Shown one piece after another: positions 41,403 through 56,807 of a stretch of 64,000 nucleotides of DNA. The position numbers and the translations under genes were made by a program. The DNA lies in NCBI GenBank assembly GCA_022843925.1, contig JALHMS010000002.1, forward strand, positions 143,906 through 207,905, in the 5' to 3' direction. Below the pieces are notes generated by a model. The model did not search any database. It was not told where the DNA came from and saw only the letters and a program-made list of their open reading frames with translations. Source of the DNA: Burkholderiales bacterium (lineage in GTDB: Bacteria; Pseudomonadota; Gammaproteobacteria; Burkholderiales; Ga0077523). The first letter of the stretch is position 1. Every line of letters starts with the position of its first letter.

Positions 41403-41789
41403 TCAGTTGGCGGGATCCTTCAGCCCCTTGATGTACTTGGCGAGGGCCTCGATCTGTTCTTTGGAGAGCGTCTTCCGGAATCCGGGCATAGGTGACTTGC
41501 CCCGTGAAATCTGTTCGATGACCTGCTCCTCGGTCAGCGATGTGCCGGCCAGTTTCGGGCCGTCCGCCGCTTTCATTCCGTAGTCCTGGTGGCACCAGCT
41601 GCAGTTCGTGGCGAAGAGCTTCCGAATATCGATCTTCGGTTTCTCGGGGGCAGCTGCGGGCTCCGCCGGCACTGCCGTTTCGCTCGCCGGGTTGTTCGCA
41701 TCGGCGGCGTGCACGCCACCAGCCGATCCCACGGTAAGCGACGCGAGCATGAGCAGGCAGCCGCGCATCGTCATCGTGGCAACTTTCAT
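41403..41789 (-). CDS. Periplasmic class I c-type cytochrome, likely PQQ-dehydrogenase electron acceptor
   Basis: 128 aa. Signal peptide about 1-29, then a Pro/Ala-rich linker (34-52). Heme site C63-S-W-C66-H67 and likely axial M101 in KSPMPGF. Length and single heme fit a cytochrome that takes electrons from a quinoprotein. It lies 149 bases downstream of the PQQ-dehydrogenase gene on the same strand, with a strong terminator between; the pairing is inferred from position. Confidence 0.88.
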   Translation of the reverse strand: MKVATMTMRGCLLMLASLTVGSAGGVHAADANNPASETAVPAEPAAAPEKPKIDIRKLFATNCSWCHQDYGMKAADGPKLAGTSLTEEQVIEQISRGKSPMPGFRKTLSKEQIEALAKYIKGLKDPAN

Positions 41790-41838
41790 GGTTTCTCCTT
41801 CCCGAATTCGAGTTCGGACAGACGTGTGAAAACACTAA

Positions 41839-41870
41839 TGAAAAGGGCGAGGGATCTCTCCCTCGCCCTT
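41839..41870 (-). terminator. Intrinsic terminator after the PQQ dehydrogenase gene
   Basis: Perfect 12-bp stem AAGGGCGAGGGA/TCCCTCGCCCTT (41843-41854 with 41859-41870), 4-base loop, T-run when read on the minus strand. It separates the dehydrogenase from the downstream cytochrome gene. Confidence 0.92.
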
Positions 41871-41938
41871 CGAAACGCCTCAGACTTCAGTGCGTCTACC
41901 CGACCTGCAGCAGCGCGCCCCGAGTCTCGAGTTTGCTA

Positions 41939-43681
41939 TCAGGGCAGTGCGAACACCAGGAGCTGACCAGCGTCGGTCGGCATGCTGCAGAAGGGCTCGC
42001 CGAACAGCGGGCAGTAGTTGCCGGCCACGTGGCTTCCCCAACCCGTCACCACCGCGACGTACTGCTTGCCCTTGGCGGTGTAGGTGATCACGCCGCCGTG
42101 GTGGCCGATACCGTTGTTGTGGGACCAGAGCGTCGCACCGGAGCGGGCATCCAGGGCCTCGAACACGCCATTGGCGCCGGGCACGAACACCACGTTGCCC
42201 TTCGTCGACAGCAGGCTGGCGAGCGGCGGGTACTTGTACTCCTTCTCCCACTTGATCGTGCCGGTGATCGGGTCACGGGCCGTCACGTAACCGAATGCCT
42301 TGCGGCCTTCAGGATGCGTGGACGTCCAGCTGGCGCCGAAGTAGGCCTGACCGGAGAACGCGGGCGGCGGATCCGACTTCACCACCTCGATGTCGAAGCA
42401 CCATTCCTGGCCGACCTTGTACATCAGGCCCGTGTTCGGGTTGTAGGAACCCGTGTTCCAGGAAGTCGCGCCGTCGATGGCCGGGCAAACGTTCGTGTGC
42501 TTGCCTTCCGGCAGTTCGCGGCGGCCGATCAGCTGGCCGGTCTTCGCATCCACGCCCTTGATGTAGTTGAACGTCTTGCCGGTCATGTACGCGTTCTCTA
42601 CCTTCAGAGGCGCGTGCGAGGGGTCGGCGTTGTACACGAACATGATGCCGCCCTTGTTCGGGTGGACCATGTAGCGCTTGCCACCACGCTCGATGGACAT
42701 GAACTCGCCGACGGCGCTGTCGAAGTCCCAGGCGTCGTGCGGCATTTCCTGGAACCACGACTTCAGTTCACCCGTGTCGGCATTCAGCACGACGACGGAG
42801 GAGCTGTAGAGGTTGTCGCCAGGGCGCGCACCGCCGGTCTTCCAGTCTTCGCCGGCCCAGTCGTAGTCGGGCGCCGGGTTGGCAGTGCCCCACCAGATGG
42901 AGTTCGTCACGGCGTCGTAGGTGCCGGTCATCCAGCCACCGCCACCGCCCGTCTTCCAGGAGTCGTTGCCCCAGCTCGCGCGGGACCGCTCGTCACCGCC
43001 GATGGTGTCGAATTGCCAGCGCACTTCACCCGTCTTCGCGTCGACGGCGAAGATGGGGCCGCAGCAACCGGACAGCTCACCACCGTTGGAGCCGATGACG
43101 ATCATGTCCTTGACCAGGACCGGAGCCCCAGTGAAGCCCTTGTTGCCACCCTCGACCGTGAGGATCATCTTGTCCCACACGACCTTGCCGGTGTTCATGT
43201 CGAGTGCGATCACCCGGCCGTCGGTCGTGCCCATGTACACGTTGCCGTAGCCGATCGCGATACCGCGGTTGTAGGGGTTGTAGAACGTGCCTTCGGAACG
43301 CTCCTGGTCGAGCTTGGCGCTGTACTTCCACTTCACTTCACCGGTCGCGCCGTCGAGTGCCCACACCTGGCCGGAGGCGCTGGTGTAGTACAGGACGCCG
43401 TCGACGGCGAGCGGGAAGGACTGCACGCCGCGCTTGCTGGCGCTGGGGGTGTGCACCCAGCTCACCTTCAGGTTCTTGACGTTGGCTGCGTTGATCTGAC
43501 CCAGGTCGCTGTAGTGCCACGACTTGTAGGAGCCGTGGTACGTCAGCCAGTTGTTCGGGTCCTTGTCGGCGTTCAAAAGCGTGTTGCCGTCGACCGCCAT
43601 GGCGGCGCTGCTCGTGCCGATCAGGGCTGCGACCGACAGGGCCTTGACGGACGCCGTCAGTTGAGTGCTCCAATGCTTCAT
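41939..43681 (-). CDS. PQQ-dependent alcohol dehydrogenase, lanthanide-type
   Basis: 580 aa from ATG 43681, with GGGAGAGA upstream; the open frame beyond is not coding-like. Signal peptide about 1-29, so periplasmic. Eight-bladed quinoprotein propeller with repeated tryptophan-docking motifs (LDGATGEVKW, LDMNTGKVVW, VDAKTGEVRW). Catalytic D319 with an extra Asp at +2 (HDAWDFDSA, D319/D321), the DxD signature of lanthanide-dependent XoxF/PedH-like enzymes; calcium MxaF-type enzymes have Ala there. E202 (GGELSG) and N268 (TANPAP) are the other expected metal ligands. The usual vicinal Cys pair before VNRG is replaced by F133-Y134; a different pair occurs at C206-C207. Substrate unknown. No PQQ biosynthesis genes in the window. 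Confidence 0.88.
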   Translation of the reverse strand: MKHWSTQLTASVKALSVAALIGTSSAAMAVDGNTLLNADKDPNNWLTYHGSYKSWHYSDLGQINAANVKNLKVSWVHTPSASKRGVQSFPLAVDGVLYYTSASGQVWALDGATGEVKWKYSAKLDQERSEGTFYNPYNRGIAIGYGNVYMGTTDGRVIALDMNTGKVVWDKMILTVEGGNKGFTGAPVLVKDMIVIGSNGGELSGCCGPIFAVDAKTGEVRWQFDTIGGDERSRASWGNDSWKTGGGGGWMTGTYDAVTNSIWWGTANPAPDYDWAGEDWKTGGARPGDNLYSSSVVVLNADTGELKSWFQEMPHDAWDFDSAVGEFMSIERGGKRYMVHPNKGGIMFVYNADPSHAPLKVENAYMTGKTFNYIKGVDAKTGQLIGRRELPEGKHTNVCPAIDGATSWNTGSYNPNTGLMYKVGQEWCFDIEVVKSDPPPAFSGQAYFGASWTSTHPEGRKAFGYVTARDPITGTIKWEKEYKYPPLASLLSTKGNVVFVPGANGVFEALDARSGATLWSHNNGIGHHGGVITYTAKGKQYVAVVTGWGSHVAGNYCPLFGEPFCSMPTDAGQLLVFALP

Positions 43682-44057
43682 GACTCTCTCCCAGATTATT
43701 TGAACAGGATGTTGCCAAACTTCACTGCGTGGACCAGCACTGCCTAAATGCTCAACTCGTGTCGTTCCGATCCAACCTGCCGTCCGACACTGCTGCGTTG
43801 CGCTTGCGTTTCGCCCCACCGTTGCCACGCGATCGATACTCACCAACAGCCGAAAACATCGGTGCGCGAGAAACGGCGCTGTCGGCGCCAAGGAATTACT
43901 CTTGGCCGGCATCAGGAAACCGGATGAAATGTAGACCCAGTGGAACTCATTTGCAACACGAAGAAAGCCTGGAAATCACCATGATTCCTAATGCTGCAGT
44001 GCCTCATCCTTTCGCGCTTGGACAAGCGGTTTCGTCCACCTCCCGCGAGACATTCCC
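43682..44057. other. Intergenic region between PQQ dehydrogenase and arfB
   Basis: 376 bases between divergent genes; contains the proposed dehydrogenase promoter and otherwise nothing I can name. No conserved small ORF or RNA structure recognised. Confidence 0.5.
43928..43956 (-). promoter_or_regulatory. Possible promoter for the PQQ dehydrogenase gene
   Basis: On the minus strand: TTGCAA (plus 43951-43956), 17-base spacer, TACATT (plus 43928-43933). A start near 43921 would give a leader of about 240 bases. Confidence 0.38.
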
Positions 44058-44532: not shown

Positions 44533-45597
44533 CTAGAGCCAGCGACGACGGAGGAAGAAGGCCACCATCAGGCCGCCGATGGCGACCATGGCGGCCAGCG
44601 TCACCGGGAATCCCCACTCCAGTTCCAGCACGGGCATGTGCTTGAAGTTCATTCCGAAGATCCCGGTCACGAAGGTGAGCGGCATGAACACCGCCGAGAA
44701 GACCGCCAGCACCCGCATCACCGTGTTGGTCCGGTTGCTGAGCGTCGACAGGTACGCGGCGAGCATGTCGGACAGAAGGTTCTGATACGTTTCGACGCCC
44801 TCGAGCACCTGTTCGATGTGGTCCTGGAGGTCGCGCAGGTACGGGGATGTCGCCCGCGATATGAGGCGGCTGTCGAGGTGCCTCAGGGAGGCGATGACCT
44901 CCTTCACGGGCCACACCGACTTGCGCACGAAGAGCATCTCGCGCTTCAGATCGTGGATCTCCCGGAGCAATTCCTGTCGCGGATGCGTCATCACCCTGTC
45001 CTCGACGCGCTCGATGCGCTCTCCCAGCTTCTCCAGCACCAGGAAATAGTGGTCCACCACGAGGTCTAGGATCGAGTACGCGAGGTAGTCCGCTCGCTGC
45101 CTTCGCGCGGGGCCCAGCCCCTCGCGGATGCGTCGTCGCAGCGGATCGAAGAAGTCGCCGGCGCGTTCCTGGAACGTGATGACGTAGTTCCGGCCGAGGA
45201 CCAGAGAGAGCTGTTCGTTCTCCATGCAGTCGGCCTTTTCGTCCCACGAGAGCATCTTCAGCACCACGTAGACGTACTCGCCGTGATCCTCGAGCTTTGC
45301 CCTTTGGTCGGTCGCGAGGATGTCTTCCTGCATGAGCGGGTGGAACGCCAGGACCTTGCCGAACATGGCAACCGTGCCGGGTTCCCGCGTCTCGTCGACA
45401 TCGATCCAGCTGACGCTGGCGGATTCCTTGAAGGCGACGCAGTCCTCGATGCGCTCGATCTCGCGCTCGTCCACATGCTGCTCATCGAAGTCGATCACGC
45501 TCACCCGTGTGCGCTGGGTGCGTTCCTCGCCGACGTAGACGAGCGAGCCGGGTGGCAGCCCAGCCTTGGCGGAGCGCTTCTTCATCGTGCCACTCAA
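44533..45597 (-). CDS. corA: CorA-family magnesium/cobalt channel
   Basis: 354 aa using TTG 45597, which has GGAGG ten bases upstream and overlaps the MarR stop (TTGA); an ATG at 45585 (350 aa) is the alternative. Long cytoplasmic helical domain, then two C-terminal membrane helices with the selectivity motif GMNF (315-318) between them and a basic end RRRWL. Cotranscribed with the upstream marR-like gene, an unusual pairing. Confidence 0.93.
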   Translation of the reverse strand: MSGTMKKRSAKAGLPPGSLVYVGEERTQRTRVSVIDFDEQHVDEREIERIEDCVAFKESASVSWIDVDETREPGTVAMFGKVLAFHPLMQEDILATDQRAKLEDHGEYVYVVLKMLSWDEKADCMENEQLSLVLGRNYVITFQERAGDFFDPLRRRIREGLGPARRQRADYLAYSILDLVVDHYFLVLEKLGERIERVEDRVMTHPRQELLREIHDLKREMLFVRKSVWPVKEVIASLRHLDSRLISRATSPYLRDLQDHIEQVLEGVETYQNLLSDMLAAYLSTLSNRTNTVMRVLAVFSAVFMPLTFVTGIFGMNFKHMPVLELEWGFPVTLAAMVAIGGLMVAFFLRRRWL

Positions 45598-46115
45598 GAT
45601 TGACGAACCTCCGGCGCAAGACGATCGAGGTAGCGCACGAGCAGTGCGCGCTCATCGGCGCTCAGCGCCCCGGCGATGCGGTGCTCGTGGTCCTGCACGA
45701 TCTCCTTGGCGCGCTGCAGCAATCCGGCCCCTCGCCGCGTGAGGACAAGTCCGTTGGATCGGCGGTCATCCGGTGCCGCGCGGCGCTCCACGAGTTCGCG
45801 TGCTTCGAGTTTGTCGAGGGCGGGCACGAGTGTCGAGCGGTCGACTCTTGCGGCGGCCGCGAGCTGGATCTGCCGCAACCCCGGGTTTGCCTCGATGATG
45901 ACGAGAAGACCGAACAGGCCCGGCGACAGGTCGAGTATCCCGAGCGACCGCTCGAAGTCCGCGAACACGGCCATCTGAGCGAGCCTCACGTGATAGCCGA
46001 TCAGTTCAGGGAGCATGCCGAGACCGATTTCGCCGACCGGTGGTGCGACCGCAGCTCGAGCGGCCGGACGGCTTCGAGGGGCGCCTTTTTCGGTGGTGGT
46101 CACATTGTTTGACAT
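45594..46115 (-). CDS. MarR-family transcriptional regulator
   Basis: 173 aa from ATG 46115; ATG 46157 is an alternative and the open frame runs to 46481. Winged-helix core: LSPGLFGLLVIIEANPGLRQIQLAAAARVDRSTLVPALDKLEARELVERR, then the beta-wing DRRSNGLVLTRRG. Divergent from the aromatic-degradation cluster at 46420, so it is a good candidate for its ligand-responsive repressor, and upstream of corA. A TTTGACATCAAA palindrome overlaps its start codon. Confidence 0.87.
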   Translation of the reverse strand: MSNNVTTTEKGAPRSRPAARAAVAPPVGEIGLGMLPELIGYHVRLAQMAVFADFERSLGILDLSPGLFGLLVIIEANPGLRQIQLAAAARVDRSTLVPALDKLEARELVERRAAPDDRRSNGLVLTRRGAGLLQRAKEIVQDHEHRIAGALSADERALLVRYLDRLAPEVRQS

Positions 46116-46419: not shown

Positions 46420-47469
46420 ATGTCCCACAGCATCAGCATCGACGGCACGCCCGTCACGGTGGAGGCGGAGCCGGGAGACACGATCCTCGACGCGCTGCTG
46501 ATGGCAGGGGTCGGGTTCTCGTACAGCTGTCAGGCCGGGAACTGCGGTACGTGTCGCTGCGAACTGGTGTCTGGTGACATCCTCGAACTGGAGTACTCCG
46601 AGCATGCCCTCGAAGCCTCGGATCGTGCACGCGGCGTGGTGCTCGCCTGTCGCACGCAGGTCTGGGGTGACACGGTCATCCGGAAGCTCGACGACGAGGA
46701 GTTCATCGTCCATCCGTCCCGCATCCTGCGTTGTTCGGTGGCATCCCTCGATCGACTCACGCACGACATCCACCGGTTGCGTCTCGACATCCGGTCGGGC
46801 GGCCCCTTCAGCTTCAGCGCAGGTCAGTACGCATCGATCGAGTTTCCGTTCGCACCCGGCCGGGCGCGCGACTACTCCATGGCCACTCGGCCCGACGAAG
46901 CCACCCTCGAGTTCCACATCCGCGAGATGCCGGGCGGATCCGTGAGCGCCGGCCTTGCGGCAGGGCTCCGAACGGGCGACGCCGTGCGTGTCTCCGGACC
47001 CTTCGGGACGTCGTATCTGCGGGCCAACCACACCGGTCCCGTGATCGCGATCGCCGGCGGCAGCGGCTTCGCACCCGTGCGGTCGATCATCGCCACGATG
47101 CGCGCTCAGGGGCTTGCGAATCCCGTTCACACCTACTTCGGTGCGCGCGCGGAGCGCGATGTCTATGGCGAGGCGGAGATGCGCACCTGGGTGGAGGGAC
47201 GCACCGGGTCGTCGGCGCATGTCGTCCTTTCCGATCCCGATCCCGATGCCGACACCGGCACGCACGCCGGTCCGCGCCGATTCGGCCTCGTCACCGACGC
47301 TGTCGCGGAGGACTTCGCGCGGCTCGACGGTTTCAAGGCCTACGTGGCCGGGCCGCCCGCGATGGTCGACGCCGCCACGGCCCTGCTGGCATCGCGCGGC
47401 GTGGCGTCTCGCGACATCCACGCAGACGCATTTCACCCCGCCAACATCGACAAGGAGGGCACGACATGA
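46420..47469 (+). CDS. Ferredoxin-NAD(P)H-type oxygenase reductase (2Fe-2S/FAD)
   Basis: 349 aa. N-terminal plant-type 2Fe-2S domain with C37, C42, C45 and C77 (SCQAGNCGTCRCEL); FAD domain with RDYSMATRP; NAD(P) domain with AGGSGFAPVRSI and YVAGPPAMVD. Same architecture as ring-hydroxylating-dioxygenase and phenol-hydroxylase reductases (NagAa, DmpP types); PaaE has the domains in the opposite order. It should pass electrons from NAD(P)H to the di-iron oxygenase two genes downstream. Overlaps the SDR gene by ATGA. Confidence 0.9.
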   Translation: MSHSISIDGTPVTVEAEPGDTILDALLMAGVGFSYSCQAGNCGTCRCELVSGDILELEYSEHALEASDRARGVVLACRTQVWGDTVIRKLDDEEFIVHPSRILRCSVASLDRLTHDIHRLRLDIRSGGPFSFSAGQYASIEFPFAPGRARDYSMATRPDEATLEFHIREMPGGSVSAGLAAGLRTGDAVRVSGPFGTSYLRANHTGPVIAIAGGSGFAPVRSIIATMRAQGLANPVHTYFGARAERDVYGEAEMRTWVEGRTGSSAHVVLSDPDPDADTGTHAGPRRFGLVTDAVAEDFARLDGFKAYVAGPPAMVDAATALLASRGVASRDIHADAFHPANIDKEGTT

Positions 47470-48395
47470 CTGCACCGCTGCTCGAAGGGCGCGTCGCGCT
47501 CGTGACAGGCGGGGCGCGCGGGATCGGCCACGCCGTGAGCAGGGCACTGCATGCCCTGGGTGCATCGGTCCTGGTCGCGGATGCGGGCGTCGGCATCGGG
47601 GGGGACGCCCCCGACCCGTCCGTCGCGAATGCCGTCGCGGCCTCGCTAGGACACCGTGCCGCGGCCTTCACCGCCGATCTCGCTTCGCCGGGCCAGGCCG
47701 AGGCGGCGGTCGCTGCAGCCCGCGAGCGCTTCGGCGCCATCGACGTCGTGGTCAACAACGCGGCGATCCTTCGGGACGGCTTCATCTTCAAGACGCAGCG
47801 CGACGACTGGCAGCGCGTGCTCGAGGTGAACCTGCACACTCCGTTCGCGATTCTCGCGGCGGCGACGCCGGCCATGCGGGAACAGGTGAAGTCCGGCCGG
47901 GCGCCCGGCCGCATCGTTAACGTCATCTCCAGTGCCGGACTCGTGGGCAACTTCGCCCAGAGCGCGTATGCCTCGGCGAAGGCCGGTCTCGCCGGTCTCA
48001 CGCGCACGGTCGCGATGGACCTCCACCGCTCCGGGATCCTGTGCAACGCCGTGGCGCCGTTCGCCGCCACGCGCGTCACGGAATCGATCCAGGCGGCCAA
48101 CGATGCGCAGGCCGAGTACAAGGCCCGCGGGTTGCGGGTTCCCGCGGAGCACGTCGCGCGGGTCATCGCGTTCCTCGTGAGCCCGGCGAACGGATTCACC
48201 GGGCAGATCCTCGGCGTGCGGGGGCGCGAGATCTTTCTCTTCTCGCAGGCCCGGCCCGTGGCACGCGTGGTGAGCGAGCCGCTCGACCGGCAGGACGCGC
48301 TGGCACTCGGCGGGGTGCTGGAGGCCGAGTTCGCCGACCGCCTCACCGATCTCGCGACGGACCTCGAACTGTTCAACACAGAACCACTTCTATAG
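47466..48395 (+). CDS. Short-chain dehydrogenase/reductase with C-terminal extension
   Basis: 309 aa from ATG 47466. TGGARGIG (14-21), NNAA (97-100), catalytic S155/S156, Y168 and K172 (SAYASAKAGL). Asp39 in VADA suggests NAD(H) preference. The last ~60 residues (GVRGREIFLFSQARPV onward) resemble the tail of hydroxyacyl-CoA-dehydrogenase SDRs, so a CoA-thioester or cyclic diol substrate is possible. Position suggests it oxidises the oxygenase product; inference. Confidence 0.87.
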   Translation: MTAPLLEGRVALVTGGARGIGHAVSRALHALGASVLVADAGVGIGGDAPDPSVANAVAASLGHRAAAFTADLASPGQAEAAVAAARERFGAIDVVVNNAAILRDGFIFKTQRDDWQRVLEVNLHTPFAILAAATPAMREQVKSGRAPGRIVNVISSAGLVGNFAQSAYASAKAGLAGLTRTVAMDLHRSGILCNAVAPFAATRVTESIQAANDAQAEYKARGLRVPAEHVARVIAFLVSPANGFTGQILGVRGREIFLFSQARPVARVVSEPLDRQDALALGGVLEAEFADRLTDLATDLELFNTEPLL

Positions 48396-48416
48396 ATGTC
48401 AATGGGAGCAACGACC

Positions 48417-49118
48417 ATGAGCGCAGTCGCCATACCGGATGTGAAGACGGTCGCAGACCTCGCCACGCAGCCCGAGGAGTACCGGGTGGCGGTCGAGAAG
48501 ATCGTGATCAGCCACGCGGTGAACGAGTTGTACGGAGCACAGGTATTCGACGAGCCCGCGATCGCCCTGGCACCTACGCCCTACGCGAAGTGGCTCACCT
48601 GTCGCGTCGCGATGGAGGAGTATCACCACCACGTGCGCTTCCGCACGCTCGCCGAAGAAATGGGTGTGGCGCCCGAGCGCATGGATCCCGACGCCAAGCG
48701 ACCGCTGTCGATCTTCGAGTTCCAGCTGCGCACGTGGCCGGAGTTCTGTGTCATCAAGGCCGTTGCCGACTACGCCGAAATCCTGCAGGTCGAGGACCTC
48801 CTCCACTGCTCGTTCCACCCGCTGCGCAATCTCGCCCGCATCACGATGCCCGAGGAGAAGTTCCACGCGAAGTTCGGCAAGGACTTCTGCCTCGAACTCA
48901 TCCAGGCGGGCCGCGCCGCCGAGGTGCAGGATGCGCTCGACCGCTATTTCCCGATCACGCCGGCGTTCTTCGGATCGAGCAACTCGAAGAACAACGAGAT
49001 GTACCGGCGTCTCGGCCTGAAGCAGCGGAGCAACGACGAGATGCGCGCGGACTTCCTCGGGCGCGTGACCGAACTCGTCGAGAAGGATTTCGGATTGCGC
49101 CTGCCGGTGCTCCAGTGA
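48417..49118 (+). CDS. PaaA-like di-iron oxygenase catalytic subunit, stand-alone
   Basis: 233 aa from ATG 48417, with GGGAG eight bases upstream (an ATG at 48396 has none). Ferritin-like fold expected: E37 (NELYG), E68-x-x-H71 (EEYHHH), D118/E121 (ADYAEILQ) and E147-x-x-H150 (EEKFHAKFG). These align in order with the PaaA segments SEIVG, DEAGHG, VDGAAIVNQ and EESFHQ, and the following FFGSSNSKNNEMYRRLGLK region also matches PaaA. PaaA works with PaaC, PaaB, PaaD and PaaE; no PaaC, PaaB or PaaD homologue is present here. Likely hydroxylates or epoxidises an aromatic ring upstream of gentisate. Confidence 0.82.
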   Translation: MSAVAIPDVKTVADLATQPEEYRVAVEKIVISHAVNELYGAQVFDEPAIALAPTPYAKWLTCRVAMEEYHHHVRFRTLAEEMGVAPERMDPDAKRPLSIFEFQLRTWPEFCVIKAVADYAEILQVEDLLHCSFHPLRNLARITMPEEKFHAKFGKDFCLELIQAGRAAEVQDALDRYFPITPAFFGSSNSKNNEMYRRLGLKQRSNDEMRADFLGRVTELVEKDFGLRLPVLQ

Positions 49119-49173: not shown

Positions 49174-50217
49174 GTGAACCAGCCCGTCGACAACCGCGCA
49201 GCGCGCGACGACTATTACCGGCGCATCGGCACCCAGGGCATGACGCCGCTCTGGGAGGCCATGTCGGCACTCGTGCCGGAGACCCCGCGGACACCCTGCG
49301 TGCCCCACCTCTGGCACTACGACGCAGTTCGTCCTGCACTCATGGAGTCCGGCACGCTCATCACGGCCCGCGAGGCGGTGCGGCGGGTCCTGATCCTCGA
49401 GAACCCGGGGATGCCGGGCTCCTCGTCCATCACCCAATCCCTCTACGCCGGTCTGCAGCTGATCCTGCCCGGTGAAGTCGCGCCCAGCCATCGCCATACG
49501 CAGACCGCGCTGCGTCTCATCGTGGAAGGCGAGGGCGCCTACACCGCCGTCGACGGCGAGCGCGCGACGATGCATGCCGGGGACTTCATCATCACGCCGT
49601 CGTGGACGTGGCACGACCACGGGAACCCCGCCGAAGTCCCGGTCGTCTGGCTCGACGGGCTCGACATCCCGCTCGTGCGTTTCTTCGACTGCGGATTCGC
49701 GGAGAACCATCCGGCGGAATCCCAGCCCGTGACCCGACCGGAGGGCGACGCCCAGGCGCGCTATGGCGCCAATCTGCTGCCGGTGGATTTCCGGTCGACG
49801 CGCGGTGCGTCCCCCGTGTTCGCGTATCCGTATGCGCGGAGTCGCGAAGCCCTGCATCGCTTGTCGAAGGGGCAGGAGGTGGATGCTGCGCACGGCCATC
49901 GGATGCAGTTCATCAACCCCACCACGGGTGGCCCGGCGATGCCGACCATGGGGGCGTTCGTGCAGTGGATCCCGGCAGGGTTCTCCGGCAACGCCTACCG
50001 CAGTACCGATGGCACGGTGTTCCAGGTGATCGAGGGGCGCGGTGCCGTAGAGATCGCCGGCAGACGCTTCGACTTCGGGCCGCGCGACACCTTCGTCGTG
50101 CCGTCCTGGATGCCTTACCGCTTCGTCACCCAGGGCGACGAGACGGTGCTGTTCAGCTTCTCCGACCGACCCGTCCAGCAGGCGCTGCATCTTTGGCGCG
50201 AGGAGCGCATCGCGTGA
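49174..50217 (+). CDS. nagI: Gentisate 1,2-dioxygenase
   Basis: 347 aa from GTG 49174, preceded by GGGAGGAG. Bicupin with iron ligands H106, H108 and H147 (SHRHTQTALRLIVEG ... TWTWHDHG-like) and a second cupin in the C-terminal half. Opens gentisate to maleylpyruvate. Neighbouring hydrolase and isomerase complete the route to fumarate and pyruvate. Its stop overlaps the next gene (GTGA). Confidence 0.93.
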   Translation: MNQPVDNRAARDDYYRRIGTQGMTPLWEAMSALVPETPRTPCVPHLWHYDAVRPALMESGTLITAREAVRRVLILENPGMPGSSSITQSLYAGLQLILPGEVAPSHRHTQTALRLIVEGEGAYTAVDGERATMHAGDFIITPSWTWHDHGNPAEVPVVWLDGLDIPLVRFFDCGFAENHPAESQPVTRPEGDAQARYGANLLPVDFRSTRGASPVFAYPYARSREALHRLSKGQEVDAAHGHRMQFINPTTGGPAMPTMGAFVQWIPAGFSGNAYRSTDGTVFQVIEGRGAVEIAGRRFDFGPRDTFVVPSWMPYRFVTQGDETVLFSFSDRPVQQALHLWREERIA

Positions 50218-50744
50218 ATCCCCAGCTCTACGGGCTGTCGTCCGCCGCCTGGTTCTCGGCGTGTGGGCTGCCCTTCGAACCGTCCGACATCGCCGATGCG
50301 CGCGCCTATCTGGACGCGCTCGGCCTGCCGGCGCGCATGCCGGTCGAGCCCGTGGCGTCCTGGGAGCACGCCGAGCGGATCATCCGCAATCCCGCCTGGG
50401 ACGTCAGCTGGTGGGAACGCGAGGAGGCCGAGCGGCGCGCCCTGATGCGCCGCTGTGTCGAGAAGCTCGGTGAGGCGGCGGCGCTGGAAAGCCTGAGCCT
50501 TGCCGCCGGCGCGGAACACGAGGCCATCCACGGAGCGGCGGCCGTGGCCGCGGCGCGCGCCGGCGTGGCCGACGAGGCGCTCGTCCGCGCCGCGGCCGGC
50601 GCGGCGAGCATGGCGGCCAACGGGTTGTCGCTTACCCGCCTCGCGGAGACCGGGCCCGAGCATCTCTTCGTGCGAAAATACGCCCTTTTCGAAGGGGGTC
50701 GCTGGCCACTCGGCATCATCGCCGGCGTCCTTCACCTGTTCTGA
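50214..50744 (+). CDS. Unrecognised 176-aa helical protein in gentisate cluster
   Basis: GTG start at 50214 overlaps the gentisate dioxygenase stop, with GAGGAG eight bases upstream, so translation is coupled. No signal peptide or membrane segment. Trp-rich middle (HAERIIRNPAWDVSWWEREE), then Ala-rich helices with E103-x-x-H106 (AEHEAIHG) and a C-terminal GVLHLF. I do not recognise a family. Its position and one ExxH make it a candidate accessory subunit for the PaaA-like oxygenase, but this is a guess. Confidence 0.75.
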   Translation: MNPQLYGLSSAAWFSACGLPFEPSDIADARAYLDALGLPARMPVEPVASWEHAERIIRNPAWDVSWWEREEAERRALMRRCVEKLGEAAALESLSLAAGAEHEAIHGAAAVAAARAGVADEALVRAAAGAASMAANGLSLTRLAETGPEHLFVRKYALFEGGRWPLGIIAGVLHLF

Positions 50745-50762: not shown

Positions 50763-51458
50763 ATGACCACCCTGTTCGAGCCGCAGGCCCCCACGCTCGT
50801 GCCCATCGTCGGGCACAAGGAAATGTTTCCCGTGCGTCGCGTCTACTGCGTCGGTCGCAACTACGCTGCGCACGCCCGGGAGATGGGCAAGGATCCGGAC
50901 AAGGAGCCGCCGTTCTTTTTCCTGAAGCCCGCCGATTCCGTGGTCCCCGGTGGTGGCGATATCCACTATCCCCCCGGCACGAAGAACTACCAGCACGAGA
51001 TCGAACTCGTCGTGGCGATCGCCAAGGGCGGGCGGCGCATTCCCGTCGCCGACGCGTTGTCGCACGTCTTCGGTTACGGGGTGGGGCTCGACATGACCCG
51101 GCGCGATGTGCAGTTCGCCGCGCGCGATCTCGGTCGGCCGTGGGACTTCGGCAAATCGTTCGACGAGGCCGCGCCGCTCGGTCCGCTGTATCCCGCGGCC
51201 AGCCATGGACATCCGTCCAAGGGTGCGATCTCGCTCCTCGTGAATGGCGAGACGAAGCAGCACGGCGATCTCGCCGACCTCATCTGGTCGGTGCCCGAGA
51301 CCATCAGCTTCCTTTCGGACTACTACATGCTCCAGCCCGGTGATCTGATCTACACCGGGACACCCGCTGGCGTCGGCCCCGTGGTGGCAGGCGATCGCCT
51401 CACCGGCCGGATAGAAGGCTTCGCCGACCTGGACGTCACCATCGTCCCAGCGCTGTGA
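50763..51458 (+). CDS. nagK: Fumarylpyruvate hydrolase (FAH family)
   Basis: 231 aa. FAH-fold motifs: VYCVGRNYAAHAREMG, YQHEIELVV (E79, E81 metal ligands), MTRRDVQFAARDLGRPWDFGKSFD-type central segment and IYTGTPAGVGPV. Closest in character to NagK, which splits fumarylpyruvate to fumarate and pyruvate, the last gentisate step. 18 bases after the preceding gene. Confidence 0.93.
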   Translation: MTTLFEPQAPTLVPIVGHKEMFPVRRVYCVGRNYAAHAREMGKDPDKEPPFFFLKPADSVVPGGGDIHYPPGTKNYQHEIELVVAIAKGGRRIPVADALSHVFGYGVGLDMTRRDVQFAARDLGRPWDFGKSFDEAAPLGPLYPAASHGHPSKGAISLLVNGETKQHGDLADLIWSVPETISFLSDYYMLQPGDLIYTGTPAGVGPVVAGDRLTGRIEGFADLDVTIVPAL

Positions 51459-51468
51459 GATCGGTGAG

Positions 51469-52371
51469 ATGAGCGACGACGAACAGCAGGACGGCGGACG
51501 GAAGGTATGGCTGGAAGTGGCCCTGAACGGGCCGTGGGGTCGTGCGCGCCAGCCGCGCATCCCGATCACCATCCGGGACATCGTCGCGGAAGGTGTGGCG
51601 TGCGTGGAGGCCGGTGCCTCGATCGTCCATGTGCACGCCTACGACGAGGTCACCGGGCGCCAACGTGACGACTGGCAGACGTACGCCGAGATCATCACGG
51701 GCATCCGCGACAGGGTCGACGCGATCGTGTATCCCACGATCCCGTTCGTGGGCGACGACGGCGTGCCGCAGTCCGACGCGAAGCAGCGGTTCGCCCATAC
51801 CGAGGAGCTTGCGAAGCGGGGGCTCGTGGAGTGGGCGGTCGTGGACCCGGGCTCCACGAACATCACGCACTGGGATCAACTGCAGCGGGACGAGCCCGGC
51901 TTCGTGTACGCGAATCCGGAAGAGCAGATCCGCCACGCACTCGGGCTCGCGCGCCAGTTCGCGTTCCATCCGGCGTACGCGATCTACGAACCGGGCTTCA
52001 TCCGCCTGGGGGCGGGTCTGCACTGGCGGTGCGGCTGTCCCGCGCCCGTCTATCGCCTGATGTTCACCTCGGACTACAGCTTCGGGTTTCCGCCCGAGGA
52101 CTACGCCGTCACCGCCTACCTCAACCTGCTCGATCAGTTCGCGCCCGGCGCGCAGTGGATGGTGGGCGGGCTGGGGGTGGACGTGCTTCCGTTGATTCCG
52201 CGGGCGGTCATCGAGGGAGGGCACGTGCGCACGGGGCTGGAAGATGTGCCCTTCGGTACCGATCGGAGCAACGTCCAGCTCGTCGAGGCCGCCGTGGAGC
52301 GCATCGAGAACATGGGGGCCTCTCCGGCGGCGGTCAGCGACGTCCGCTCGGCCCTCGCCGTCGAGATCTGA
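51469..52371 (+). CDS. BKACE-family beta-keto acid cleavage enzyme (DUF849)
   Basis: 300 aa TIM-barrel enzyme. Zn site H54-x-H56 (IVHVHAYDE), YEPGFIRLG and the C-terminal GGHVRTGLED. BKACE enzymes transfer an acetyl unit from acetyl-CoA to a beta-keto acid, releasing acetoacetate and a new CoA ester. Substrate within the family varies widely and cannot be read here. First gene of a four-gene acid-processing block inside the gentisate genes. Confidence 0.87.
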   Translation: MSDDEQQDGGRKVWLEVALNGPWGRARQPRIPITIRDIVAEGVACVEAGASIVHVHAYDEVTGRQRDDWQTYAEIITGIRDRVDAIVYPTIPFVGDDGVPQSDAKQRFAHTEELAKRGLVEWAVVDPGSTNITHWDQLQRDEPGFVYANPEEQIRHALGLARQFAFHPAYAIYEPGFIRLGAGLHWRCGCPAPVYRLMFTSDYSFGFPPEDYAVTAYLNLLDQFAPGAQWMVGGLGVDVLPLIPRAVIEGGHVRTGLEDVPFGTDRSNVQLVEAAVERIENMGASPAAVSDVRSALAVEI

Positions 52372-52429
52372 CGGGCGGGGCGGGCGGCGGACCGATGCGG
52401 AAATCCGAGCCCGGGACAACCTTCGGCCA

Positions 52430-52435
52430 TATAAT
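52430..52435 (+). promoter_or_regulatory. Possible -10 box upstream of the PdxA2-like gene
   Basis: Perfect TATAAT 36 bases before the ATG of the PdxA2-like gene, in the only gap (99 bases) within this part of the cluster. No acceptable -35 at 16-18 bases, so an internal promoter is only a possibility. Confidence 0.33.
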
Positions 52436-52470
52436 CGCGGGCTTTTCCCAGGCCATTCCAGAGGCAACGA

Positions 52471-53460
52471 ATGACGGCTCCTGCCAGGCTCGGCATCACC
52501 ATGGGCGATCCCTCCGGCATCGGCCCGGAGATCATCGTGAAGGCGCTTGCCGACATGTCCCCCGAAGAGCGGGTCACGGCGGCGGTGGTCGGCAACATCG
52601 ATCTGCTGAAGCGCGCCGACGCCGTGGTGGGATCGAAACTCCGGTTCAACACCGACTACCTGAACCCGGCCTCCGGTGAGGTCCCTGTCATTCACGTGGA
52701 CTCCAAGGGGATCGACACGCTGAAGGTCGGGGTCATCTCCGAGGCCGGCGGCGAGGCCGCCTATCGGTACATCGAGCGCGCAGTCACGCTCGCACTGGCC
52801 GGCGAGATCGGCGTCATCGTGACGGCACCGCTCAACAAGGGCGCGTTGCATTCGGCGGGTCACCACTTCGATGGCCACACCGAACTGCTCGCGACGCTGA
52901 CCGACACCAAACAGTCCTGGATGCTGCTGGCGTCCGAGAAGCTCTCGGCGCTCCACGTGTCCACCCACTGCAGTCTGCGCGTCGCGACCGAGCGAGCCAC
53001 CACGCAGCGCGTCCTCGACACCATTCGCACCGGATACCGGCACTACGTGTCGATCGGCATTCCCGATCCGCGCATCGCCGTGGCCGGGATCAACCCGCAT
53101 TGCGGCGAAGGCGGCATCTTCGGCCGCGAGGAGATCGATCAGATCAACGGGGCCGTGACCGCCGCCCAGGCGGAGGGCATCGATGCGAGGGGGCCGATCT
53201 CCGGAGACACCGTGTTCTACCGTGCGCTGCGCGGCGAGTTCGATCTCGTGATCGCCCAGTACCACGATCAGGGACACATCCCCACCAAGCTGATCGCATT
53301 CGACACCACGGTGAACGTCACCCTCGGTCTGCCGATCCGCCGAACCTCCGTGGACCACGGCACGGCGTTCGATATCGCGGGTACCGGCCGCGCCGATCAC
53401 ACGAACATGCAGTCCGCCATCGCCTACGCGCGCCGCATGACCAGCCGTCCTCCGGCCTGA
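52471..53460 (+). CDS. PdxA/PdxA2-family 4-phospho-hydroxy-acid dehydrogenase
   Basis: 329 aa. MGDPSGIGPEI near the N-terminus, metal-binding histidines in GHHFDGHTELL and YHDQGHIPTKL, and VDHGTAFDIAG. PdxA makes the pyridoxal precursor; PdxA2 oxidises and decarboxylates 4-phosphothreonate/erythronate-type acids. The DUF1537 kinase next door favours PdxA2. A TphB-like dihydrodiol dehydrogenase role is another option in an aromatic cluster. Confidence 0.88.
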   Translation: MTAPARLGITMGDPSGIGPEIIVKALADMSPEERVTAAVVGNIDLLKRADAVVGSKLRFNTDYLNPASGEVPVIHVDSKGIDTLKVGVISEAGGEAAYRYIERAVTLALAGEIGVIVTAPLNKGALHSAGHHFDGHTELLATLTDTKQSWMLLASEKLSALHVSTHCSLRVATERATTQRVLDTIRTGYRHYVSIGIPDPRIAVAGINPHCGEGGIFGREEIDQINGAVTAAQAEGIDARGPISGDTVFYRALRGEFDLVIAQYHDQGHIPTKLIAFDTTVNVTLGLPIRRTSVDHGTAFDIAGTGRADHTNMQSAIAYARRMTSRPPA

Positions 53461-53514
53461 TCGACCGCCCGGATCCGCCGTCCCCTCACCGACCCCATCC
53501 CGAGCCTCGCTGGA

Positions 53515-54714
53515 ATGACCGATCGACCACGCGTCCTCATCATTGCGGACGACCTGACCGGCGCCATGGATGCGGCCGGCCCCTTTGCGTCCTGCGGGCT
53601 TCCCACCTGGGTCGCCGCGGTTCCGGAGGATTGCGACCCCTCGCGCTTCGCGCGTGCCACGGTGGTGTCCGTCAACACCGAGTCGCGTCATCTCCCGCCG
53701 GAGGCGGCCGGGCAGCGCGTGGAGCACGCCTGGCGGCAGGTCGGTGGCGAGACCTTCGACATCGTCGTGAAGAAGATCGACTCCACGCTTCGCGGCAATC
53801 CGGTGGTCGAGGCCCGCGTTCTGCAGCGCCTCGCGGGTCGCGACAGTCTCGTCGTGGCGCCAGCGTTTCCCGCGCAGGGGCGCGTCGTCCGCGGAGGGGG
53901 GGTGTTCGTGCACGGTGTCCCGCTCGCCGACACCGCGTTCGCGAGCGACGCGCTTTCGCCTGCGCTGACGGTGCCCCTGGCGGAGGCGTTCGCCCCCGTC
54001 GATGACGCCGGCGCCGCGCGGTCGTACTCGGCGCGGGCCTTCGCCGTCGCCGACCCGGAGGCCTTCTCCGTGGCCATCGTGGACGCCGCCACCGACGACG
54101 ATCTCGCCGGCGTCGCCGCCGCAGCCCTCCGGCATTGCGCGCGTTGGCTGCTCGTGGGGTCGGCCGGACTCACCTCGGCCCTCGCCCACGCGTTGGGCAT
54201 TCCCGGCTCGCTGCCCGAGCCGCCGGCGGTCTTCGGGCGCATCGTCTTCGTGGTCGGTTCCAGGGCGCCCGCCTCCCGGGAGCAGGCGTTGAACCTCACG
54301 GCCGACGGGGCTCGTCTCGTCGAGGCGGTCAACGGTCGGCTGCACAAGGAACCCGTGCTCTCCCCGGGGGCCGATGTCCTCTTGATGTCCGTGCCCGACA
54401 AGCAGGGCCAGGAGGGCGACGCGGCCGAGGTCGCGAACATGCTGGCGCGGCACGCGATGCGTTTGCTCGGTTCGGGCAACGCCCAGGCGATCGTCGCCAC
54501 CGGCGGCGACACCGCGGTGGCCTGCCTCAGAGCGAGCGGCAACCCGGCATTGGCCGTCGGCGGCGAACTGATGCCCGGGATCGCCTACGCCAGGCTGATG
54601 ATCGGCACGCGTCCGGTGTGGCTGGTGACCAAGGCCGGCGGCTTCGGAGATGCCACTGCGCTGGCCGAGATCGGCCGGCGTCTGCGGATCCGCGCCCCGG
54701 CGGCCACCTCCTGA
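53515..54714 (+). CDS. DUF1537 four-carbon acid sugar kinase
   Basis: 399 aa. N-terminal domain with IADDLTGAMDAAGPFA and KKIDSTLRGN; C-terminal nucleotide domain with ATGGDTAVACL and GIAYARLMIG, ending KAGGFGD. The family phosphorylates C4 acids such as threonate and erythronate, whose phosphates are substrates for PdxA2-type enzymes, exactly the neighbour upstream. 54 bases separate the two genes. Confidence 0.9.
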   Translation: MTDRPRVLIIADDLTGAMDAAGPFASCGLPTWVAAVPEDCDPSRFARATVVSVNTESRHLPPEAAGQRVEHAWRQVGGETFDIVVKKIDSTLRGNPVVEARVLQRLAGRDSLVVAPAFPAQGRVVRGGGVFVHGVPLADTAFASDALSPALTVPLAEAFAPVDDAGAARSYSARAFAVADPEAFSVAIVDAATDDDLAGVAAAALRHCARWLLVGSAGLTSALAHALGIPGSLPEPPAVFGRIVFVVGSRAPASREQALNLTADGARLVEAVNGRLHKEPVLSPGADVLLMSVPDKQGQEGDAAEVANMLARHAMRLLGSGNAQAIVATGGDTAVACLRASGNPALAVGGELMPGIAYARLMIGTRPVWLVTKAGGFGDATALAEIGRRLRIRAPAATS

Positions 54715-54724
54715 GCGCGCCACC

Positions 54725-56152
54725 GTGGCCATCGATTCCCGCCGCATGGATGCCTTCTTCCGACCTGCCAGCATTGCCGTGGTGGGGGCGGGCGAGCGTC
54801 CCACCAGTTCGGGTGGCGCCGTGCTGCGGAACCTGCGGGTCTGCGGCTGGGGCGGACGTGTGATTCCCGTCAATCCCAAGGGCGGCGTGATCCAGGGCCT
54901 TCCGGCGGTGACCTCGCTGCGCGAGATCTCGCCTCCGGCGGATCTCGTGGCCGTGCTCGTGCGACCAGAGGCGATCCTCGACGTCGCCCGGGAGGCCGCG
55001 GCCACCGGCCATCGCAATCTGCTGATCCTGCCGGGCGGGTTCTCGGAGGCTGGTGAAGTGGGCCGTGCGCGCGACGCCGAACTGCGGACCCTCGCGGCCG
55101 CCGAGGATCTCCTCATCGGCGGGCCGAACTGCGGCGGGCTCGTGAACGTGCTCGATGCCGATGCGCGGTTTGCGGCGACGTTCTTCCGGGACGTCCCTGC
55201 CGGCGGCCCCGTGGCGCTCATCTCCCAGTCGGGTGCCATCGCCGAGGAGATGATCGCTGCGAGCCACCGCGACGGGATTCCGCTCGGCGCCATCGTGTCG
55301 GTGGGCAATGCGATGCACCTCGATCTCGCCGACTATGTCGACTACCTTGGTGCGGATCCGCAGTGCGGTGCGATCCTCCTGTACGTGGAGTCCTTCGGGG
55401 ACTCGGATCGTTTCCAGGCGGTCGCCGCCCGGGTATCGCGTCGCAAGCCGATCATCGCTCTAGTGGGAGGTCGGACTTCTGCCGGGCGGGAGGCCGCCTT
55501 CCGTCATACCGGTTCCCTTGCCATGACCTCCGGGGCTACGGATGCCTTCTGCGCAGCCGCAGGCGTGCTGCGCGTGGCGACCCTCCGCGAGCTTCGCCTG
55601 GCGGGGAAAGTCTTCGGGACTCTCCCGGCAGGTATCGGCCAGCGGGTTCTCGTGCTCTCGAACTCCGGCGGTCCCGGCGTGCTGGCCGCGGACGCCGTGG
55701 TGCAGGCCGGCCTGCAACTGATCGATCTGCCGTTGGACCTCGCGGCGACCCTGCGCGGCATGCTTCCCCCCGAGGCGGCGGTGGCGAATCCGATGGATCT
55801 TCTGGCCGATGCCCGCGAGGACCGGTTCGGACCCGTGCTCGCCGCGATGCTCGATCGGCTGCGGGGTCAGGTCGACGCCGTGCTGATGATCCACGTCGTG
55901 CCGTTCATGGTCGACGCGGCGCCGGTCGTGACGGCGCTGGCCGCGGTGACCGGGTCTGCCGACGTGCCGATGCTGCATACGATGATGGGTACGCTCGAAG
56001 GACGTGCCGACTGGTTCGCGGTGCTCGAGTCCGCGGGGGTGCCGACCTTTGGCGACGCCGAGGAGATGTGCGTCGCAGCGGGGCTGCTGGCCCGCCGTCG
56101 ACGATGGCTGATCGATCCGTCGCCCGGCACCGCGGTTGCCGCGACGCCCTGA
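54725..56152 (+). CDS. ADP-forming acyl-CoA synthetase alpha subunit-like, no ATP-grasp
   Basis: 475 aa from GTG 54725; ATG 54746 (MDAFFRPASIAVVGAG, 468 aa) is equally plausible. CoA-binding Rossmann domain (PASIAVVGAGERP), then succinyl-CoA-synthetase-type domains with SQSGAIAEEM and the phospho-histidine site FRHTGSLA (H261). The ATP-grasp beta domain that normally phosphorylates this system is absent both here and in the rest of the window. It may pair with a distant beta subunit or act as a CoA-transferring protein. Confidence 0.85.
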   Translation: MAIDSRRMDAFFRPASIAVVGAGERPTSSGGAVLRNLRVCGWGGRVIPVNPKGGVIQGLPAVTSLREISPPADLVAVLVRPEAILDVAREAAATGHRNLLILPGGFSEAGEVGRARDAELRTLAAAEDLLIGGPNCGGLVNVLDADARFAATFFRDVPAGGPVALISQSGAIAEEMIAASHRDGIPLGAIVSVGNAMHLDLADYVDYLGADPQCGAILLYVESFGDSDRFQAVAARVSRRKPIIALVGGRTSAGREAAFRHTGSLAMTSGATDAFCAAAGVLRVATLRELRLAGKVFGTLPAGIGQRVLVLSNSGGPGVLAADAVVQAGLQLIDLPLDLAATLRGMLPPEAAVANPMDLLADAREDRFGPVLAAMLDRLRGQVDAVLMIHVVPFMVDAAPVVTALAAVTGSADVPMLHTMMGTLEGRADWFAVLESAGVPTFGDAEEMCVAAGLLARRRRWLIDPSPGTAVAATP

Positions 56153-56165
56153 GGAGACGCATAGG

Positions 56166-56807
56166 ATGAAGCTGCACGGATACTTCCGCAGTTCCGCGGC
56201 CTACCGGGTGCGGATTGCGCTCGGCTTGAAGGGCCTGCCCTACGAGTATGTGCCGGTGCACATCGCCAAGGGACGGCAGTTCGATGCCCCGTTCACGGTG
56301 ATGAACCCCCAGTCGCTCGTCCCCGTGCTGGAGGAGGACGGCGGTCGGCTCCTCGCGCAGTCCATCGCCATCATCGAGTATCTCGAGGAGACGCGGCCCG
56401 GCCCGGCGCTGCTCCCTGCGACCCCCGAGGCGCGCCAGCGGGTGCGGTCCCTCGCTCTGCTGGTGGCGTGCGAGATCCATCCCCTGAACAACCTTCGCGT
56501 GCTCAAGTACCTCACCGACGTGCTCCAGGTGACCGAGGCGCAGAAGCTCGCCTGGTACACCCACTGGGTCGCCACCGGCCTCGAGGCACTGGAGCGGCGT
56601 CTGGCCGCCGAGCCGGAGACCGGGCGTTTCTGTCACGGTGACTTGCCGGGGCTGGCGGACATCTGCCTCGTGCCGCAACTGGCCAATGCGCGACGTTTCT
56701 CCGTGGACCTCGCGCCGTATCCCACGCTGCGCAGGATCGACGAAGCCTGTGCGGTGCTGCCGGCCTTTGCAGCGGCACTCCCGGCCAATCAGCCGGACGC
56801 CGAGTAG
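56166..56807 (+). CDS. nagL: Maleylpyruvate isomerase, zeta-class GST
   Basis: 213 aa from ATG 56166, with GAGGAG upstream. N-terminal thioredoxin fold with the zeta signature SSAAYRVRIAL (9-19) and NPQSLVPVLEEDGG, then the helical domain with EIHPLNNLRVLKYL and GDLPGLADICLVPQ. Isomerises maleylpyruvate to fumarylpyruvate (NagL) or maleylacetoacetate (MaiA); the gentisate genes in the same cluster favour NagL. Last gene of the cluster. Confidence 0.9.
   Translation: MKLHGYFRSSAAYRVRIALGLKGLPYEYVPVHIAKGRQFDAPFTVMNPQSLVPVLEEDGGRLLAQSIAIIEYLEETRPGPALLPATPEARQRVRSLALLVACEIHPLNNLRVLKYLTDVLQVTEAQKLAWYTHWVATGLEALERRLAAEPETGRFCHGDLPGLADICLVPQLANARRFSVDLAPYPTLRRIDEACAVLPAFAAALPANQPDAE

Follow-up and report, generated by a model that had tools for sequence, protein, structure and literature searches.

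Gentisate is a widely used step in aromatic ring breakdown. Among the systems whose oxygenase feeds gentisate or catechol, salicylate 5-hydroxylase (NagGH) and benzoate dioxygenase (BenABCD) employ Rieske oxygenases, together with a BenC-type reductase and the dehydrogenase BenD. Closer to the protein described here are PaaA of the 1,2-phenylacetyl-CoA epoxidase PaaABCE, BoxB, the benzoyl-CoA 2,3-epoxidase that acts with BoxA, and SSO1313 of Sulfolobus, a single short PF05138-like protein (4mud). According to a review (PMC4498308), PaaA and BoxB act on coenzyme A (CoA) esters; PaaA alone is insoluble, with PaaC thought to be its structural partner, and BoxB needs no structural subunit. With BoxB, a single-subunit relative is already known; what is new here is a further variant, PaaAL, with a partner family (U176) and a gene cluster of its own.

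We analyzed a 64,000-nucleotide stretch (the window) of a Burkholderiales bacterium (GCA_022843925.1, contig JALHMS010000002.1, positions 143,906 to 207,905). A sequence-only reading had proposed that one of its genes encodes a minimal, one-catalytic-subunit member of the CoA-ester oxygenase group, which would produce gentisate without PaaC, PaaB or PaaD. The family match, the predicted fold and the linkage to a gentisate 1,2-dioxygenase (GDO) support a one-catalytic-subunit member tied to gentisate. PaaAL stands as a genuine single-subunit variant of PaaA/BoxB type, conserved and connected to gentisate degradation, and its mechanism is likely in outline. A search of titles and opening lines of abstracts in the open-access literature, outside of which most subscription journals lie, returned no description of the PaaAL system, which is weak evidence of novelty.

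Family, fold and iron site of PaaAL

PaaAL (48417..49118, forward strand, 233 aa) lies in a frame that is open from 48396 to 49118 (240 codons). The ATG at 48417 is its likely start, because the alignment of orthologues begins there; GGGAG stands upstream at 48404–48408. The proposed relationship to PaaA held up in the profile search, PaaAL matching Pfam PF05138 at 3.1e-21 and 76.2 bits (gathering score 28.5). Against the PaaA equivalog model TIGR02156 (NCBIfam) it scored 78.8 bits, below the cut-off of 280, whereas the window genome's own PaaA, on contig C11, reached 538.5 bits; PaaAL is therefore a relative of PaaA and not PaaA itself. Identity to PaaA is ~30%, and the nearest PDB sequences were the PaaA entries 4iit, 3pvr and 4ii4 (E 6.6e-14 to 2.8e-13; residues 25–229 of 240). 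The similarity had been described as collinear over all of PaaA; it runs through these aligned residues, but PaaAL stops short of the C-terminal tail of PaaA and has no counterpart to it. BoxB is longer (~475 aa), pairs with a reductase of another type (BoxA) and is weakly similar in sequence: PaaAL scored 15.7 bits against TIGR03225 (cut-off 499.1), which rules out that it is a BoxB. Comparisons with five close relatives gave dN/dS values of 0.07–0.12, indicating purifying selection.

The structure model of PaaAL, built from 18 orthologues (mean pLDDT 94.2), matched PaaA chains with TM-scores of 0.84–0.86 by query length (3pw8_C, 0.86, 1.7 Å). After the PaaA chains, the next PDB fold matches were SSO1313 (4mud), PaaC and BoxB. 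SSO1313 is similar in fold (TM 0.85/0.89, 20% identity), yet archaeal and far in sequence. The review gives Glu42, Glu72, His75, Asp126, Glu155 and His158 as the expected iron ligands of PaaA (PMC4498308). With these six align E37, E68, H71, D118, E147 and H150 of PaaAL, all invariant in 81/81 proteins (the window and 80 further loci). They include the two ExxH motifs already pointed out from the letters alone (E68-x-x-H71 and E147-x-x-H150, numbered from 48417), and BoxB shares both fold and ligand set. A structure model lacking a di-iron site had been named as grounds for abandoning the proposal; the model instead has a PaaA-like fold with all six ligand residues present. By fold and full predicted ligand set, PaaAL is thus modelled as a PaaA-type di-iron oxygenase catalytic subunit.

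A further feature of PaaA is absent. Its lysine bridge joins Lys68 with Glu49, Glu72 and Asp126. At the Lys68 position PaaAL has valine (72/81) or isoleucine (9/81), leaving it without the bridge, and the Glu49 position is aspartate in 81/81. A tree was built from 49 rows: the window, 34 of the 80 loci and 14 PF05138 proteins of other kinds. In it, very long branches part PaaAL from these 14, for which reason support for the single split was just 53/81. Judged from these sequences, PaaAL is a distinct group of PF05138. The GDO label changed 5 times on this tree, a count to which we give no evidential weight. A further PF05138 protein (L028; genome G175, contig C51, 1501–2142), ~30% identical to PaaA and 28% to PaaAL, formed its own branch.

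Distribution, partner subunits and gene cluster

PaaAL was found in 20 of the 399 genomes searched in the window's order, at 65–100% identity, after which the next match drops to 32%; nine of the ten next loci below PaaAL are 70–77% identical to the window genome's PaaA. A scan of named genomes yielded 148 PaaAL relatives, and the best 80 of 148 were kept as loci. These derive from Beta- and Alphaproteobacteria, one Acidiferrobacteraceae metagenome-assembled genome (MAG) and Polyangiaceae; the carriers include Reyranella, Enhydrobacter, Iodidimonas, Vineibacter, Desertibaculum and many MAGs, some of whose titles (e.g. Bordetella parapertussis) look like closest-match labels. The 80 loci and the 20 genomes of the order overlap, several loci lying in the same genomes, and so are not independent sets; the locus counts given here come from profile searches on fetched stretches, with score thresholds and distances chosen by us and with many loci ending early. 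A plasmid collection gave 197 matching records, all below 60% identity to PaaAL, the 30 listed being at 29–31%. PaaA on haloarchaeal plasmids was looked at on account of the gentisate pathways of Haloferax; both regions examined carried ordinary paa sets.

Queried with the window genome's own proteins, the 81 loci contained no PaaA, PaaB, PaaC or BoxB besides PaaAL, and no PaaD is among the annotated genes of the window operon. To this extent the claimed lack of PaaC, PaaB and PaaD partners is borne out. Such genes had been suggested as worth seeking elsewhere in the genome, where a PaaC/PaaB set co-regulated with PaaAL would have counted against the proposal. Some were found: paaA and paaB lie on contig C11, where another PF05138 gene occupies the paaC position, and boxBA on contig C35. 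These are ordinary phenylacetyl-CoA and benzoyl-CoA epoxidase genes on contigs other than the window's, and the separate paa set rules out PaaAL as a member of it. We extended the PF05138 search to 24 PaaAL genomes (the 20 of the window's order and four reached via loci L108, L114, L123 and L124). PaaA/PaaC was present elsewhere in 11/24, whereas in 13/24 neither PaaA nor PaaC exceeded the cut-off, PaaAL aside; six of these 13 are 96–99% complete, three 91–92%, and four have no listed figure. PaaAL would therefore not depend on PaaC in these 13 genomes, which rules out the idea that it borrows PaaC from elsewhere, and it appears to need no PaaC.

GDO lies directly downstream of PaaAL and a reductase and an SDR dehydrogenase upstream, as first read from the sequence. 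The reductase (Red, 46420..47469, forward strand) has an N-terminal [2Fe-2S] domain followed by FAD and NAD domains (Pfam Fer2, FAD_binding_6 and NAD_binding_1). Its best NCBIfam matches were BenC (172.9 bits, cut-off 430) and then MmoC, both far under their cut-offs. A PaaE-type reductase, the known companion of PaaA, does not agree with this domain order, in which Fer2 is N-terminal as in BenC and MmoC. The SDR (47466..48395, forward strand; Pfam adh_short 8e-44) starts four bases before the reductase ends. The combination of reductase, dehydrogenase and oxygenase resembles the NagGH and BenABCD sets, from which PaaAL differs in being a di-iron PF05138 oxygenase rather than a Rieske protein.

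Red, SDR and PaaAL run in one direction in 74/80 loci (best 80 of 148); among the six exceptions, four have the PaaAL start <1 kb from the locus edge, and the others are L099 and L131. Other recurrent genes in the same best 80 of 148 are U176 (67 loci), GDO (53), the acyl-CoA synthetase alpha subunit (43), FAH (37), the TRAP transporter genes DctM (22) and DctP (20), MAI (21), two groups of hotdog thioesterases (19 and 10) and CoA-transferase III (6). A MarR-family regulator, divergent from the cluster in the window (45594..46052, reverse strand; Pfam MarR 8.8e-14), matched anywhere in the fetched stretch in 58/80 and was divergent within 4 kb upstream in 42/80 (best 80 of 148). By these conservation counts, the core of the cluster consists of the reductase, the SDR, PaaAL and usually U176. 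In the cultured carrier Iodidimonas muriae (L120), Red, SDR, PaaAL, GDO, U176, FAH, the synthetase alpha subunit and MAI form a single run. The one-catalytic-subunit part of the original proposal therefore stands, but "minimal" may be too strong, as the nearly invariable SDR and the usual U176 may belong to the machine. In Reyranella-group loci (L123, L121, L133 and others), an alpha/beta hydrolase and an MlrC (M81) gene follow the PaaAL cluster, replacing GDO, and a hotdog thioesterase lies near the regulator.

Downstream of U176 in the window lies an FAH-family hydrolase (50763..51458, forward strand; Pfam FAA_hydrolase 3.2e-56), from its place likely a fumarylpyruvate hydrolase. It is followed, all on the forward strand, by a beta-keto acid cleavage enzyme (BKACE, 51469..52371; Pfam BKACE 8.7e-55), a PdxA-family dehydrogenase (52471..53460; Pfam PdxA 9.2e-98) and a four-carbon acid sugar kinase family protein (53515..54714; Pfam SBD_N/NBD_C) resembling D-threonate kinase, its best NCBIfam match, under the cut-off. 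These three genes (51469–54714) are part of the gentisate run in close relatives alone, occurring in 13, 12 and 12 of the best 80 of 148 loci, respectively, and are a local addition of those relatives. Further on is the alpha subunit of an NDP-forming acyl-CoA synthetase without an ATP-grasp domain (54746..56152, forward strand, start inferred, the frame opening at 54650; Pfam CoA_binding_2, Succ_CoA_lig and Ligase_CoA_2 on 54650–56152), with 2csu as closest structure (query 54704–56152). The window genome has four ATP-grasp_5 matches over the cut-off, all on other contigs, in frames of 942, 715, 415 and 404 aa. By length and score we take the first two as fused enzymes and the weak latter two as succinate-CoA-ligase-like, and no obvious stand-alone partner for the alpha subunit appeared among them. 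The run closes with a GST-fold protein (56166..56807, forward strand, start inferred; Pfam GST_N on 56136–56807), from its place likely a maleylpyruvate isomerase (MAI).

Two observations concern other parts of the window. A PQQ-dependent alcohol-dehydrogenase-like protein (41403–43834, reverse strand) and a small neighbouring protein are kept beside the cluster in close relatives. At 49–15516 (forward strand), a 5155-aa frame with PA14, PKD, cadherin-like and bacterial Ig repeats looks like a giant surface or adhesin-like protein.

U176 (50214..50744, forward strand, 176 aa) belongs to no known family. It had no match in Pfam or NCBIfam, where searches with 12 members returned just single-member matches at E 0.045 or weaker; the PDB held no credible sequence match, and its model (pLDDT 83.9) gave no Foldseek match with E <0.001. 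That U176 is a shrunken PaaC is ruled out by the lack of any PF05138 or fold match. In every one of the 67/80 loci that carry it (best 80 of 148), U176 is on the same strand and within 2.5 kb after PaaAL, and five of the 13 loci without it end within 2.5 kb. Across the window's order, where up to eight first-look candidates were scored per genome, U176 was detected in 16/20 PaaAL genomes, always at the PaaAL locus, and in 0/379 others. Two of those 16 (G157 and G153) hold remnants matching 26 and 97 model positions, and this search gave no U176 match in G023, G070, G114 and G368, the contig of G114 ending ~260 bases past GDO. Its dN/dS of 0.02–0.25 indicates purifying selection. In the order searched, U176 thus looks specific to the PaaAL system, yet not strictly required, because it is missing or a remnant in 6/20 genomes, in one of which the contig stops early.

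Linkage to gentisate degradation

The GDO beside PaaAL (49174..50217, forward strand, GTG start at 49174) scored 554.4 bits against TIGR02272 (cut-off 442.1; scored on 49177–50217) and so is, as judged by this model, a true gentisate 1,2-dioxygenase. Linkage to GDO sets PaaAL apart from PaaA. Among the best 80 of 148 loci, GDO was present in 53: directly after PaaAL on the same strand in 50, farther away in two and on the other strand in one. The direct arrangement occurs, by record titles, in Beta- and Alphaproteobacteria and in Polyangiaceae. In the remaining 27/80 loci GDO was absent from the fetched stretch, some of which are ended by contig ends; 22 of 25 checked loci of this kind (L102 and L129 left out) belong to genomes with a GDO over the cut-off elsewhere.

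Co-occurrence across whole genomes points in the same direction in the window's order, where GDO over the cut-off was found in 20/20 PaaAL genomes vs 39/379 others (Fisher p 1e-18, or 3e-8 with just the eight PaaAL genomes outside the window's genus, relatedness not corrected). Part of this association may reflect aromatic-degrading genomes in general, since BoxB, which is unlinked, is also enriched there (18/20 PaaAL genomes vs 56/379 others). In the order of Reyranella massiliensis, GDO was as common with PaaAL (44/47 genomes) as without it (28/29), and co-occurrence is therefore uninformative there. Given both controls, we place the weight on physical linkage in 53/80 loci. In two Reyranella-type genomes where GDO lies apart from PaaAL (GDO loci L137 and L138), the queries used found no further gentisate gene at the GDO locus; three neighbours in L137 were classed as a quinone reductase type, a dephospho-CoA kinase and a glutamine-amidotransferase-like hydrolase.

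Candidate reaction and rival explanations

Besides the CoA esters used by PaaA and BoxB, the genes linked to PaaAL in relatives bear on its substrate. AMP-forming ligases occur in three loci. L053 (genome G180) and L130 have theirs directly after PaaAL; in L075, which is from the same genome as L051, it lies beside GDO, ~9 kb from PaaAL. All three matched the 3-hydroxybenzoate-CoA ligase HbdA best (367.5 bits in L053, 395.4 in L130 and 225.5 for a partial frame in L075; cut-off 1000) and the benzoate-CoA ligase family second; among PDB entries, anthranilate- and benzoate-CoA ligases come closest to the ligase of L053. Weaker ligase matches were seen in L120 (29%) and L073 (a 123-residue piece). 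One of the linked thioesterases had MenI as its third-listed match, a weak one at 33 bits (cut-off 225). MenI cleaves the thioester 1,4-dihydroxy-2-naphthoyl-CoA, which is analogous to gentisyl-CoA but carries a fused benzo ring. The window operon itself holds neither an AMP-forming ligase nor a thioesterase. For other substrates the window genome has its own enzymes: BoxBA (benzoyl-CoA), PaaAB (phenylacetyl-CoA) and, on contig C39 (L142, G000, 2471–7048), a reductase, a second GDO, an FAH and a Rieske alpha/beta oxygenase, an ordinary-looking cluster that we take to follow the salicylate 5-hydroxylase pattern.

We propose that PaaAL is a stand-alone di-iron monooxygenase, free of PaaC and PaaB, which would convert an aromatic acyl-CoA, most likely 3-hydroxybenzoyl-CoA, to gentisyl-CoA; we lean slightly towards this proposal being right. 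3-Hydroxybenzoyl-CoA would be the first choice because HbdA-like ligases are linked to PaaAL in three relatives. Red would take electrons from NAD(P)H and hand them, via FAD and [2Fe-2S], to the di-iron centre of PaaAL, which would oxygenate the CoA thioester. A thioesterase, such as those in some relatives' loci, would free gentisate, and GDO, the likely maleylpyruvate isomerase and the likely fumarylpyruvate hydrolase of the same gene run would take it to fumarate and pyruvate. U176 would probably assist the oxygenase, and the SDR would probably carry out an NAD-dependent dehydrogenation directly before or after oxygenation. N122, S155, Y168, K172 and D39 of the SDR are conserved in ≥95% of 79 rows. 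An aspartate after the second strand in SDRs usually means NAD. Because D39 is kept at that position, the SDR probably uses NAD and hence has an oxidising role. The enzyme does not point clearly to a CoA ester: by single domain, the PDB entry closest to it is a FabG-type 3-oxoacyl-ACP reductase (4dml, 139.5 bits); the (3R)-hydroxyacyl-CoA dehydrogenase 2et6 heads the list only because its score adds up two matching domains (116.5 and 90.7 bits, sum 208.6). The SDR is also the weakest point of the proposal, as plain hydroxylation of 3-hydroxybenzoyl-CoA leaves it without work: either a hydroxybenzoate is two electrons more oxidised than the true substrate, or the substrate is first prepared by the SDR, or the product is a dihydrodiol.

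The last of these options can be spelled out. PaaAL would epoxidise benzoyl-CoA at C2–C3, water would add at C5 by allylic opening, perhaps aided by U176, and the SDR, whose superfamily branch handles 3-hydroxy/3-oxoacyl thioesters, would oxidise the beta-hydroxyl of the resulting 2,5-dihydro-2,5-dihydroxybenzoyl-CoA and rearomatise it to gentisyl-CoA. We regard this route as very improbable; it would account for the near-constant presence of the SDR, and, if true, the conversion to gentisyl-CoA would give benzoyl-CoA another outlet in addition to the box route. A different question is whether a thioester is involved at all, since PaaAL could act on a free aromatic acid (3-hydroxybenzoate, its ether or ester) with the acyl-CoA genes of the cluster downstream or unrelated. 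The lack of an AMP-forming ligase in the window operon and a synthetase alpha subunit with no obvious ATP-grasp partner would fit, as would the missing C-terminal tail, which by position should bear the door residue Leu286 named for PaaA (PMC4498308). Against this stand the CoA-ester substrates of PaaA and BoxB, the closest characterised relatives (PMC4498308), and the recurrence of ligases, thioesterases and CoA-transferases in PaaAL loci, and we consider a free-acid substrate unlikely.

The adjoining GDO would also fit other ring isomers. Routes to gentisate by 5-hydroxylation or by migration of the carboxyl-CoA group are known for other enzymes, and PaaAL might use them on salicylyl-CoA or another isomer, or on 4-hydroxybenzoyl-CoA, respectively. 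Salicylyl-CoA is less likely here than 3-hydroxybenzoyl-CoA, judging by the Rieske oxygenase beside the second GDO on C39; none of the linked genes seen points to 4-hydroxybenzoate, and the three linked ligases are nearest HbdA, so that substrates of this kind strike us as quite improbable. The product might, finally, not be gentisate, with PaaAL oxygenating a non-aromatic or different acyl thioester, the SDR working on a hydroxy- or ketoacyl group and GDO linked for other reasons. Such a reading could draw on the 27/80 loci without GDO, on the Reyranella-type loci with the alpha/beta hydrolase and MlrC in its place, on the order in which GDO is unlinked and as common without PaaAL, and on the resemblance of the SDR to 3-oxoacyl-ACP reductases and hydroxyacyl-CoA dehydrogenases. 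It is hard to reconcile with a GDO directly after PaaAL on the same strand in 50/80 loci (best 80 of 148) from three lineages, with FAH and MAI in many of them, and with the window's order, where each of the 20 PaaAL genomes has a GDO, and we consider it decidedly doubtful.

A PaaA-type catalytic subunit without PaaC in at least 13 genomes offers a natural minimal system for the roles of PaaC and of the lysine bridge. If the preferred conversion of 3-hydroxybenzoyl-CoA to gentisyl-CoA is true, PaaAL would belong to a conserved and widespread gentisate-forming oxygenase system with an as yet unnamed partner family of its own, so far covered just by a family model named for phenylacetic acid catabolism, and an aerobic, CoA-linked route to gentisate would become testable.
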